Below, in pieces: positions 50,263 through 53,544 of a DNA stretch of 57,401 nucleotides. The notes beneath the pieces are model-generated. The model was given only the letters and a program-made list of their open reading frames with translations, did no database searches and was not told the origin of the DNA. The stretch is taken from assembly GCA_027858995.1 (NCBI GenBank), contig JAQIBP010000029.1, positions 1-57,401 of the forward strand. The letters run 5' to 3'. The DNA comes from Deltaproteobacteria bacterium. Lineage in GTDB: Bacteria > Desulfobacterota > Desulfobacteria > Desulfobacterales > Desulfobacteraceae. The translations under genes and the position numbers were made by a program. Numbering within the stretch: position 1 is the stretch's first letter; each line of letters opens with the position of its first letter.

Positions 50263-50454
50263 GATTTGTCTCCAATTTAATTTTAATGTTGTATATGCAA
50301 ATTAACGGTTTTCGGTCAAGCCCTAATTAAACAAGTTAAAATGAAATTCATATTATTCTTTTAAAAATCATTTATGTTTTACTTTTATATAGACGATGTT
50401 CACTGTTTGTCAAACCAAAATCATTGTAAACTGGATATTTAGCATAAGGAGTTT

Positions 50455-50607
50455 ATGTTTACCCGTACTGGATGTTTATCTCCCGATGGTTTTTTTATTA
50501 TCCCGGCAGGAACCAAGATAAGACTCAGACCTGAGCGTTATGATACATTCAGGTCTGGTGACGAGTTGAAACAGTTGCTCTCGACGTCATGCCTCCGTAG
50601 ATGTTAA
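50455..50607 (+). CDS. Small hypothetical protein opening the accessory islet
   Basis: This 50-residue frame begins ATG at 50455 right after TAAGGAG (5-base spacing), the best ribosome site nearby. It reads MFTRTGCLSPDGFFIIPAGT and ends TSCLRRC. No family is recognised. The strong start suggests translation, but the short abrupt end may mean that the gene is truncated. It lies upstream of repeat copy A. Confidence 0.4.
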   Translation: MFTRTGCLSPDGFFIIPAGTKIRLRPERYDTFRSGDELKQLLSTSCLRRC

Positions 50608-50730
50608 AACCCGGTGAAAGTTTCACCTTCACTCCTGTCTCTGTTGAATTTGCCCTGAAAGCAGCTTGTTGTAATAATGTATGAAAAAACATTTTGGCAA
50701 ATTCTAAAAAAAATTTAATGGTGGATATAT

Positions 50731-50914
50731 CTCCAATAAAAAACATTCTGGCAGATTTTTCCTGAATCAATTATATTTTCACCAAAGTTGATTTATTGAA
50801 AATCCTTTACAGATATTAGAAAGATTGATACTGAATTCATCATCCAGGTCTTATTTGTCTGGTCGGATATCATTCAAAATTTACAAGATACATTGATCTG
50901 CACAATTATTTGTT
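50731..50914. repeat. About 185-bp diverged direct repeat, copy A
   Basis: Within the gene-poor stretch 50608-51121, bases 50731-50914 match 52045-52230 at roughly three-quarters identity by eye, with few indels. The longest identical runs are CTGAATCAATTATATTT (17 bases) and AAATTTACAAGATA (14). The copy ends about 10 bases before the ribosome site of the small frame at 50934 and 208 bases before the Abi-alpha-like gene. Flanking sequence on both sides is not similar. Confidence 0.75.
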
Positions 50915-50933
50915 ACGCAAGAAAGGAAACCAA

Positions 50934-51047
50934 TTGACAGACAAAAAGAAAAAATCGGAAGAAAACAAAAAGGCAAAAGATATTCGCCAAGAATATTCTG
51001 TTGTGGTTGGTTCTATTTATTACATCCGTTGTAAAAATAGTATTTAA
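50934..51047 (+). CDS. Possible small lysine-rich protein
   Basis: This 37-residue frame starts at TTG (50934) with AAAGGA about 5 bases upstream. It reads TDKKKKSEENKKAKDIRQEY then VVVGSIYYIRCKNSI. It directly follows repeat copy A, in the position the HNH gene occupies after copy B. It may be the truncated start of a lost gene. Confidence 0.3.
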   Translation: MTDKKKKSEENKKAKDIRQEYSVVVGSIYYIRCKNSI

Positions 51048-51121
51048 ATGCTTAGTTTAAATGAAAAATTGCATAATTAAAACTGTTTTGTCCGAAGTAA
51101 ATACATATTGAGGTAATTATT

Positions 51122-51793
51122 ATGAACGAAGAGATTAAAGCTATAGCTGAGCTTGCAAAAATGACAGATAAAGCATTGGATTGTGCCAGAGAAGTCGGTG
51201 GTTTTATATCAAAATTTATTGTTGGGCCACTGGAGCAAGGCATGGGGATCTTTGAAGACAAACTAAAGTACATGCGTTGGGAAAGACAGATCGCTCTGAT
51301 TGATAAGGTCAACAAAAAAATGTCCGAAAGAGGCCTTGATGAACCGACACAAGTAGTTCCGATGAAGATAACCATTCCGCTACTTCAAGCAGCATCCATG
51401 GAAGAGGAAGACAATCTACAGGAGTTATGGGCCAACCTCCTTGTTAACGCTGCCGATAAGGAATGTAATGTTGACATAGTACATAGCTTCATTTCAATTT
51501 TAAAAGAACTGACTTGGTTGGACGCTCAGATACTTGATACGATTTATTCATTCAATGAGAATGTCCAGATATGGACATGGAAACTTCCTGATGAAGTTGT
51601 TACCGAAGACCCAAAATCCAATTTTTGTACACCATTAGAGGAAGAAACTTTCTCACTTGAGGTGTTATGCAGATTAGGCTTACTTGAGCCAATCGGTTTG
51701 ATGGGTATCCGTACAGGACCTGGTGTTACTTCAGTTTTTAAAACTACATTAGGAGGAAGGTTTCATAGAGCCTGCATAAAATTTAAGAATTGA
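51122..51793 (+). CDS. Abi-alpha-like protein (DUF4393), putative abortive-infection factor
   Basis: The 223-residue protein has ATG at 51122 after TGAGGTAAT. The N-terminal 75 residues are amphipathic with GPLEQGMGIFEDKLKYMRWE. The diagnostic part is about residues 79-133: a Pro-rich lead (VVPMKITIPLLQAAS), then EEEDNLQELWANLLVNAAD and FISILKELTWLDAQIL, which matches the DUF4393/Abi_alpha core as I remember it. No transmembrane or nuclease motif is seen. It is the first of two repeat-associated genes, and a phage-defence role is an inference from family and neighbour. Confidence 0.7.
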   Translation: MNEEIKAIAELAKMTDKALDCAREVGGFISKFIVGPLEQGMGIFEDKLKYMRWERQIALIDKVNKKMSERGLDEPTQVVPMKITIPLLQAASMEEEDNLQELWANLLVNAADKECNVDIVHSFISILKELTWLDAQILDTIYSFNENVQIWTWKLPDEVVTEDPKSNFCTPLEEETFSLEVLCRLGLLEPIGLMGIRTGPGVTSVFKTTLGGRFHRACIKFKN

Positions 51794-52044
51794 GTCCAAT
51801 TTAGCTTGACACAAATTCGTGTACCCTTTCAAGGTACCAATATAAAAAACTTGAATGATTGATGCGATTTCTCAGTTAAGGTTAATCCTTATGGGAATAG
51901 TCATAAGATGCTCAAAGTATCAATGATATCAGTTTAATCCTTAATTATTTTTTTTGATCTTACAGATCAGGTTGAGGGAATTTTGACGTTTACTACTGCC
52001 TAAAATCCGCATCATATCTGGACGGATATTGCTTAATTTTTAGT

Positions 52045-52230
52045 CTCCAATAAAGGTTATTTCGGTAGATTCTTTCTGAATCAATTATATTTCCAGCAAA
52101 TTTGAATTGCTGAAATTTCTTTACAGGCATTTGAAATATTGATACAAATTCTTGAAGCAGAGTTTCAAATTTATCTGATCGATTATTACACAAATTTACA
52201 AGATAAAGAGATCCGTACAATTAATTGTTA
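52045..52230. repeat. About 185-bp diverged direct repeat, copy B
   Basis: This is the partner of 50731-50914. It lies in the 455-base gap between the Abi-alpha-like gene and the HNH-WYL gene and ends 5 bases before the latter's AGGAG ribosome site. On the minus strand it is open for 75 codons (51993-52220), while copy A has stops in the matching frame. The rest of the gap (51794-52044) shows no gene. Confidence 0.75.
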
Positions 52231-52248
52231 AGCTTCAGGAGTATTAAA

Positions 52249-53262
52249 ATGCCATCATGTAAAATTTGTAGAGGAATCGTTTTCGATGGTATTCATCTTT
52301 CCGATGGTGGGTTGCTCCACAAATCTTGTTTGGAATCTATTCAGGGTAAGGAACTGAAAATTAGAAACAAGATATATGAACAGCAAGGGAGATTGAGCAA
52401 ATTGAGGCGAGAATTTGAAAGACGTAAAAAATTAATATTTAAAATTGTATCTATATTTTCAAAACCTGACGTCGATATTGTCGATATTGAAAGGAAAATC
52501 TCAATCCTTGAGAAGAATATTGAGCAATTGTTCGAGAATTTGCACCCCTTGCAAACCAAAACCGCTACACTTTACGATTACTTTCTTACATATCCACCAG
52601 ATTGGGAAGCAAGAAGAAAACAAATAGTAGAAAGAGAGGGTAATAAATGTAGTGACTGTGGAAACTGGCGGCACCTTCATTTACACCATCTAAAGCCTTT
52701 ATCTAAGGGTGGCAGTAACAAAATATCAAACTTGGAGTTGCTATGTGAAAAATGTCACTCAAAAAAACATGGTGGTCGAAATTTCTCTGGCGATTTGAAC
52801 AGTTCAGAGACAGCTTTTTCCAAACGCGTAGCAAATATTCGCTATGCTATTGCAAATGGTAAGCTAATTAAGTTTGGTTATAAGAAATATAAAGATAAAA
52901 GCTATAAACAAAGAACTGTTAAGCCTGCTAAACTTGTTATTCTTGACCATATTAGAAACACTGGATCAACTCTTTGTGTTCATGGTTATTGTGAACTTCG
53001 AAAAGCAAGGCGCACATTTGCATTAAAGCGAATGAGAGGTTTAAAGGTTGAAAACCGAATACAAGGGTTCAAACCAAATTCAAAATCATCATCAGATACT
53101 AACAAATTTAAAAAGCCAACATCCACTAAAAAAATGGCTAAGCCTAAAAAAAAGCCAACACCCACTAAAAAATTGGTTAAGCTTAAAAAGAAGACACAAT
53201 TTGAAGATATGTGTGACCAATTAGAGCAGCATGATATAGAAAATTTGAAATTAATGGAGTAA
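52249..53262 (+). CDS. Zinc finger - coiled coil - HNH nuclease - WYL domain protein
   Basis: I chose the ATG at 52249 (337 residues), with AGGAG 9 bases upstream. Residues 4-27 have CX2C...HX2C (C4, C7, H24, C27), a half-LIM-like finger. Residues 37-105 are a charged coiled coil. The HNH domain spans about 125-175, with C134/C137, HLHHLKPL (H146, H147), N161 and C166/C169/H170. A WYL-like domain follows (about 195-270): LIKFGYKKYK, QRTVKPAKLVI, then CVHGYCELRKARRTFALKRM. The tail has K/P/T repeats (288-315), probably DNA binding. The combination suggests a ligand-sensing defence nuclease. Confidence 0.8.
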   Translation: MPSCKICRGIVFDGIHLSDGGLLHKSCLESIQGKELKIRNKIYEQQGRLSKLRREFERRKKLIFKIVSIFSKPDVDIVDIERKISILEKNIEQLFENLHPLQTKTATLYDYFLTYPPDWEARRKQIVEREGNKCSDCGNWRHLHLHHLKPLSKGGSNKISNLELLCEKCHSKKHGGRNFSGDLNSSETAFSKRVANIRYAIANGKLIKFGYKKYKDKSYKQRTVKPAKLVILDHIRNTGSTLCVHGYCELRKARRTFALKRMRGLKVENRIQGFKPNSKSSSDTNKFKKPTSTKKMAKPKKKPTPTKKLVKLKKKTQFEDMCDQLEQHDIENLKLME

Positions 53263-53544
53263 CAGATGCAGTTATGCTTTAAATACAATCGGCGGCACCT
53301 GAACTCTACAGTTAAAGTTCAACTTTATTCTCTGACAACGTTAATCAAAGGCATTCTTCCGCATTATTTTTTTTAATATAAAAATTTGATTTCACTGGAA
53401 GCCCTTCCGGGATATCGTAGGGGGTAGATACAGGTGGTTTGCAATATCCAACCAGCGTTAGAAAGGCAGCCATCCTGGAACAGATAAAAGCAGAAAGCTT
53501 TACGGTAAATATCCAAATTATCAAAAAAATTATATGAGTCTAAT

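Follow-up and report, generated by a model that had tools for sequence, protein, structure and literature searches.

Positions 50263 to 53544 of the window, a 57,401-nt stretch of a draft Desulfobacula genome, contain an Abi-alpha gene and a gene for a protein with HNH and WYL domains, each 3' of one copy of a dispersed repeat, the type-I 5' repeat. Judged from sequence comparison, with a probability put a little above even, such repeat copies would be attI-like landing pads dispersed over the genome, and each would carry cassette-like cargo, in some cases defence genes. The observations behind this reading are a repeat with sharp ends, a split at GTT, cargo on the strand of the repeat, and best-kept tails that match a site beside an integron integrase. 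An integron is known as a single platform with a single array, and its integrase cleaves attI after the G of GTT (written G/TT below). Many unrelated genes start at G/TT behind a tail equal, in the best copies, to the integrase's own site, which argues for cassette insertion at scattered attI copies.

The stretch would represent two neighbouring units of a genus-wide family, and these insertion units probably work like an integron. A typical unit would comprise a 5' half, from TCTCCAA to an attI-like ...TTG/TT, one or two unrelated cargo genes, and a 3' half starting from GTT. An N-terminally extended integrase encoded on contig C46 would insert gene cassettes, probably circular, at the G/TT of the scattered sites as at attI, and a single integrase would serve many pads, each with one gene or a few. 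Promoter and leader would be provided by the repeat, from which the cargo would be expressed. The diverged tails in the window would once have been working sites.

The type-I 5' repeat and the split at GTT

All coordinates are on window numbering; G numbers denote genomes (G000 is the window's own), C numbers contigs (of the window's genome where no G number precedes) and L numbers fetched loci. The genus set comprised 26 Desulfobacula genomes, including the window's draft, and 32 more genomes were from outside the genus (57 relatives besides the window's genome). The type-I 5' repeat, of about 187 to 190 bp, was present in 22 of the 26 genus genomes and gave weak matches in 4 of the 32 others; further copies and fragments occurred elsewhere in the window's genome. 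Its structure was studied in 45 copies, from the window and 40 fetched loci, mostly picked by the authors from genome-search matches.

The 5' edge of the repeat was abrupt at TCTCCAA, which was exact in 23 of 33 long copies. Column identity among 33 aligned copies was 0.27 to 0.61 in 36 columns upstream, 0.45 to 0.73 in the last four columns before TCTCC, and 0.82 to 1.0 in the first eleven from TCTCC. The repeat ended in ...TTG/TT, and unrelated genes then started on the same strand. Of the 43 copies with a downstream open reading frame (ORF), 40 had the next one on their own strand (two of the 40 more than 1 kb away); the nearest upstream ORF shared the strand in 28 of 44. These counts take ORFs of at least 75 aa and exclude those on the repeat itself; 2 of the 45 copies had no downstream ORF. 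In the window, copy 1 (50730 to 50914, forward strand) started with TCTCCAA at 50730 to 50736 and ended in ATTATTTG/TT (GTT 50912 to 50914), and copy 2 (52044 to 52229, forward strand) started with TCTCCAA at 52044 to 52050 and ended in ATTAATTG/TT (GTT 52227 to 52229).

Cargo proteins matched Pfam families at 1e-4 in 13 of 19 cases and matched nothing in 6; the families were GFA, GNAT, RES, PEMT, Sel1, trypsin-like, BNR, HsdM, Abi_2, DUF2806, WYL and two AAA families. With PADLOC at 1e-5, 5 of 10 cargo proteins picked by hand as likely defence genes had matches and 5 did not, a count that is no measure of enrichment because the ten were hand-chosen. The matches were to PDC-S06 (4.9e-287, in the window's genome), AbiD (1.5e-65), a type I methyltransferase, an NsnB/GajA-like ATPase and, weakly, PDC-S64.

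A second repeat, the type-I 3' half, restarted at the same GTT 3' of the cargo, with 21 matches in the fetched loci. A consensus joined from the 5' and 3' repeats (GTT at positions 185 to 187, the join placed from the two repeat alignments) was searched against the 26 genomes, and of the 150 matches listed 132 were on the 5' side and 18 on the 3' side. Among these listed matches, 51 of the 132 on the 5' side reached position 180 to 195 and none went beyond, and the 18 on the 3' side began at 185 to 189. The join was set by the authors, but an uninterrupted copy would still give a match across it, and none of the matches listed did.

In the window, the type-I 3' repeat was found behind the HNH-WYL gene (53317 to 53385, forward strand; start GTTCAACTTTATTC, GTT 53317 to 53319), with its match beginning at query position 185. 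The same repeat was searched for behind the Abi-alpha gene and not found; another dispersed repeat (51885 to 51954, matching C161 and C113) was there instead. It forms part of the presumed 3' end of unit 1 (51875 to 52043, forward strand), which extends from a GTT placed by eye at 51875 to 51877 up to the next TCTCCAA, and the last part of which was similar over 28 nt to sequence 5' of another repeat copy.

A strongly folded element was considered and rejected: the shuffle z of the 5' repeat was -0.58 for the RNA and +0.22 for the opposite strand folded as DNA. Folding of the 3' repeat gave z between -2.2 and +1.8 (21 copies), and no Rfam family matched in the stretch at E ≤ 1. Several half copies of the 5' repeat break near position 70. 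At L084 (C46), a gene that looks flavodoxin-like by eye stands between two halves of the 5' repeat, the second half upstream and the first half downstream.

The N-extended integrase and its attI-like site

Integron integrases above the TIGR02249 cut-off (265) were found in 14 of the 26 genus genomes and in 0 of 14 control genomes, and the window's genome had two (G000:C1:22415 and C46:7471). One kind was about 447 aa long, about 130 residues of which form an N-terminal extension, and matched TIGR02249 at 344 to 366 bits in a single stretch, unlike many other recombinases in that search, which matched in two pieces. Just 5' of the gene for this N-extended integrase, and divergent from it, lay ATATGCGGACAACCG...TACTTG/TT in G000, G005, G025 and G007, with different DNA after it; one base of the site varied (G005 form ATATACGG). 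The integrase-side site is the tail of the better-kept type-I repeats.

Searched against the fetched loci (1.69 Mb), a 98-nt profile of the four integrase-side sites gave 11 further distinct matches (E ≤ 1), every one of them at the 3' end of a 5' repeat. The fetched loci had mostly been selected for the repeat, and a pattern search was therefore made over the whole genomes. It found 42 sites in 16 of the 26 genomes, with 1 for the reversed-pattern control. Five of the 42 were beside the N-extended integrase (one of these beside a 70-aa partial match only), 17 were repeat tails and 20 were elsewhere. A repeat tail was defined by a 5'-repeat match with E < 0.01; the script output was 19 type-I, 19 other and 4 primary, and two sites were reclassified, G000:C46 (the integrase site itself) into the integrase class and G003:C46 (repeat E = 0.46) into the sites elsewhere. 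In the window's genome, a 92-bp sequence (93%) was common to the 3' side of GTT at the integrase on C46 and at a scattered copy on C154.

Some side observations concern these sites. Hairpin-rich sequence stands directly 3' of GTT at L246:6862-6953 and L080:1647-1738, an integrase site and a scattered copy, and that of C46 runs on into a large inverted repeat (CCCGGTGCTGAC and GTCAGCACCGGG). Among the 20 attI-like sites elsewhere are L373, L381 and L371, and some are preceded by integrase-side-like sequence. At L253:719-4698 (G007), a 95-bp direct repeat occurs three times at a spacing of about 1.9 kb, and the N-extended integrase gene separates it from the attI-like site. Canonical integrases of about 340 aa were tried as owners of the sites and rejected, the repeat profiles giving nothing better than E = 0.015 over 14 integrase loci; that weak match led to the N-extended integrase.

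The shared tail could also belong to a mobile promoter or operator, in common with the integrase's divergent promoter through one regulator, the cargo being placed by ordinary rearrangement. The motif does sit in the upstream region of the integrase, where ATATCATTCA-like motifs are found in either direction, the cargo mostly starts close 3' of the repeat on the same strand, and 20 attI-like sites are outside the repeat. Against this, conservation among the matches listed stops at a fixed GTT and a second repeat restarts there behind the cargo; a promoter repeat has no need of a conserved 3' partner. This alternative is considered unlikely.

Several results also weigh against scattered attI-like pads. 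Almost half of the attI-like sites (20 of 42) were outside the 5' repeat, and the two tails of the window (GATACATTGATCTGCACAATTATTTGTT and GATAAAGAGATCCGTACAATTAATTGTT, the common, diverged form of the repeat) were found by neither the attI profile nor the pattern at 3 mismatches; they are judged attI-like only from where they fall when the repeat copies are aligned. An uninterrupted, empty pad was not seen among the 150 matches listed for the 26 genomes. No multi-copy attC array was found around the N-extended integrase in the stretches of G000, G005 and G025, and an integrase above the cut-off was absent from the drafts of G011, G014, G016, G018, G021 and G023, each with 7 to 10 repeat matches. 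With a strict attC scorer (threshold 10), junctions preceding the 3' repeat scored no more often than decoys (6 of 28 vs. 23%), and the excess with a looser inverted-repeat test was weak (p < 0.05 at 5 of 27 junctions, with p = 0.046 in the window, vs. 4 of 80 controls). Either the attC sites have decayed or the cargo arrived by another route.

In the looser test, three true attC sites of G007 reached p = 0.007. The window junction is an imperfect, attC-like inverted repeat over the stop codon of the HNH-WYL gene (53260 to 53316, forward strand; arms TAACAGATGCAGTTATG and CACCTGAACTCTACAGTTA; shuffle p = 0.046, weak). An attC-like hairpin (p = 0.007) followed by another gene was present 3' of the HNH-WYL homologue in G003, and G021 was alike by eye. 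The 3' repeat itself was rejected as attC once it was compared with the attC copies of G007, which are 120 bp long and strongly folded. These form an array of three near-identical sites near a canonical integrase (L252, 10061-15598). A clean empty site for one unit was not obtained, the right flank of the array at G025:C73 being unmatched in the five relatives compared.

Possible spread of the proposed pads, and known systems

An element of about 2.3 kb (L206:1994-4316, G005:C5; also at G014:C33 and G025:C73) carried two tyrosine recombinase genes in tandem between inverted ends of 13 bp. It begins with CTCCAACTTGACGTAACA and ends with TGTTACGTCAAGT, and most copies seen start with TCTCCAACTTGACG. 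Its ends, if joined, would read TGTTACGTCAAG-TCTCCAA-CTTGACGTAACA, which resembles the usual core of a tyrosine recombinase. At G025:C73 the element, interrupted by another insertion, lay between two type-I units, all three pointing the same way, and TCTCCAA stood at each junction; the repeat of the second unit was recognised from position 70 onward only. As a guess from the common TCTCCAA core, elements of this type might move the pads. Another tyrosine recombinase beside two copies (C165 and G008:C29) was considered and rejected; it was found in 7 of the 26 genus genomes, often in pieces, and was absent from G005, G018, G021 and G025, all rich in repeat copies.

Units might instead be transposons with 5' and 3' ends, moved in trans by the twin-tyrosine-recombinase element, with the cargo carried along and no insertion by an integron integrase. 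The element with the TCTCCAA terminus has the inverted ends and both recombinase genes, and type-I units flank it head to tail at G025:C73. Transposition leaves unexplained the common GTT and the match between repeat tails and integrase-side site, and the window's genome had partial matches to the element only, one of them at a contig edge; as a full account it is quite improbable. It can be combined with pads filled by the integrase, one enzyme moving the pad and another filling it.

Put together, and still only tentatively, Desulfobacula may keep a distributed integron: one N-extended integrase and dozens of mobile-repeat pads, each with an attI copy, a leader and cargo, which would spread and stack head to tail via the TCTCCAA core, moved by the twin-tyrosine-recombinase element. 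If so, many captured genes, defence genes included, would be expressible without one long silent array, and two site-specific recombination systems would be layered on each other. Such copying of a capture site to many chromosomal places would illustrate how genes, once captured, can come to be expressed from numerous positions. It would also account for isolated accessory and defence genes passed over by array-based searches, which look for at least two attC sites. A scan for the repeat is a practical handle for finding new cargo.

Chromosomal integrons (intI, attI and cassette array) likewise have an integrase above the TIGR02249 cut-off and a divergent site; genes that begin at G/TT of such a site are a probable further likeness, seen here for part of the repeat family. 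Here, in contrast, the site is at many chromosomal places, often in a repeat, with one or few genes each; the integrase is N-extended by about 130 residues, and no repeated attC was found around it in G000, G005 and G025.

Cassettes away from an integrase are already known, as CALINs (attC clusters without integrase) and at attG sites (PMC12444791; a reference title in PMC11023631). The former defines a CALIN by at least two attC sites. CALINs share with the present units cassette-like genes far from the integrase; the constant part here is an attI-like repeat, and attC is weak or lost. The window has one weak attC candidate, behind the HNH-WYL gene, and not two (home-made scorers, not the model of IntegronFinder). 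In PMC12444791 the term attG covers genomic targets of cassette insertion whose consensus differs from both attC and attI, and Loot et al. 2024, on such targets, is in the reference list of PMC11023631. Cassettes inserted around the genome would be common to both cases; here the target would be a repeat, and its best-kept tails resemble what is putatively the attI of an integrase resident in the genome. Delta-attI cassettes, as summarised in PMC12901181, carry attI fragments behind an ORF within class 1 and 2 integrons. These too are attI pieces away from the usual place, whereas the attI-like sites here are in front of genes and across the chromosome. A literature search, mostly at title and abstract level, found no report of a single genome with many copies of attI, of multiple attI in integrons, or of integrons in Desulfobacula.

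The two cargo genes and their setting

An earlier sequence-only reading had placed an accessory stretch between the DUF2147 gene and leuA, with one diverged repeat in front of each of its two genes, an Abi-alpha-like gene and one combining HNH and WYL domains. All of this was borne out. DUF2147 was present in 13 of the 20 relatives whose loci were fetched downstream of leuA, and the gap was 105 to 172 bp in 11 of these 13 (fetched stretches); the 3.3-kb stretch is therefore an insertion. In the other two of the 13, G018 and G020, the gap held 999 and 2556 bp of different sequence. Of the remaining 7 loci, 5 had no DUF2147 in the stretch and 2 stretches were of insufficient length to judge. The type-I repeat (E ≤ 0.01) was found in 0 of the 20 loci. 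Single inserted genes without the repeat, by eye methyltransferase-like and chemotaxis-receptor-like, stand in the gap at L143 and L153 (G018 and G020). The two repeat copies of the window shared 79% over 102 nt and 83% over 42 nt.

The product of the first gene (51122 to 51793, forward strand, 223 aa) matched PF14337 (Abi_alpha) at 5e-24 and 85.8 bits, above the gathering cut-off of 29, and its nearest PADLOC model was the candidate PDC-S47 (1.3e-11). The founder of the family, from Enterococcus faecalis, is reported to abort phage infection in PMC6356687, where Abi-alpha is also likened to PF10987 (DUF2806). That founder and the present protein belong to the same family; the founder gene lies in a prophage of a Gram-positive bacterium, the present one 3' of an attI-like repeat of Desulfobacula. 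A DUF2806 protein is the cargo at L118:2988-3842 (G016), and proteins related to Abi-alpha may thus be cargo twice.

The second gene (52249 to 53262, forward strand, 337 aa) encodes a protein that matched HNH PF01844 (9.8e-11, 42.1 bits, cut-off 21.4) and WYL PF13280 (5.7e-10), both above cut-off; N-terminal Cys pairs, a middle helix and a Lys-rich tail were noted by eye. Translation likely starts at ATG 52249, and not at TTG 52225, with AGGAG at 52237 to 52241 (forward strand, seven bases 3' of GTT) as the likely Shine-Dalgarno sequence. Among solved structures the protein matched IscB (4.6e-07) and, weakly, McrA (0.0016), and it also matched WYL and HNH pieces of several PADLOC defence models. 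A 166-aa WYL-only paralogue with a hydrophobic start is encoded 3' of another type-I repeat copy on C172 of the window's genome (L079:376-873); its WYL domain had 51% identity to that of the second cargo protein.

The sequence-only reading had also taken both genes for one defence locus. Their families are linked to defence and some other repeat cargo matched defence models, which keeps the defence part of that claim; one two-gene locus was not upheld, and the shared repeat does not mark a single locus, since the same repeat precedes many unrelated genes. A two-component system with WYL sensing and HNH cutting would fit the adjoining genes and the defence-linked families, and is very improbable given the distribution of the homologues and the separate repeat and separate GTT of each gene. 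No side-by-side pair was found among the 57 relatives or in plasmid records; phage records were not searched. Relatives of Abi-alpha occurred in 2 of the 57 (G001, 26% identity; G034, 39%). Homologues of the HNH-WYL protein that extend past the HNH domain were in G003 (65%, residues 57 to 276) and G021 (71%, WYL domain, cut by the contig end), neither of which had an Abi-alpha match. Their 3' neighbour, in near-identical sequence, was a different gene, DUF2971-like by eye, and the upstream side was off the contig. The remaining matches to the HNH-WYL query in the 57 relatives were mostly to the HNH domain, with one, in G040, to the WYL domain; G001 matched both queries, yet on different contigs and in the HNH domain only. 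Plasmid records gave ten HNH-WYL matches, from haloarchaea and covering 18 to 30% of the protein, and four Abi matches from other organisms.

In the window, the two-gene hypothesis gives way to two single genes, to be assessed apart. If the scattered-pad reading holds, Abi-alpha would be a candidate for abortive infection on its own, and HNH-WYL an independent candidate for a nuclease. By eye, an ORF of 37 aa starting with TTG may lie between the first GTT and the Abi-alpha gene (50934 to 51047), which would make the first cargo two-gene. A further dispersed repeat (50564 to 50729, forward strand) lies directly 5' of unit 1, possibly as the remaining 3' end from a unit that was lost; in the same genome it matched C15 (84%, query 50610 to 50738) and C30 (81%, query 50564 to 50681).

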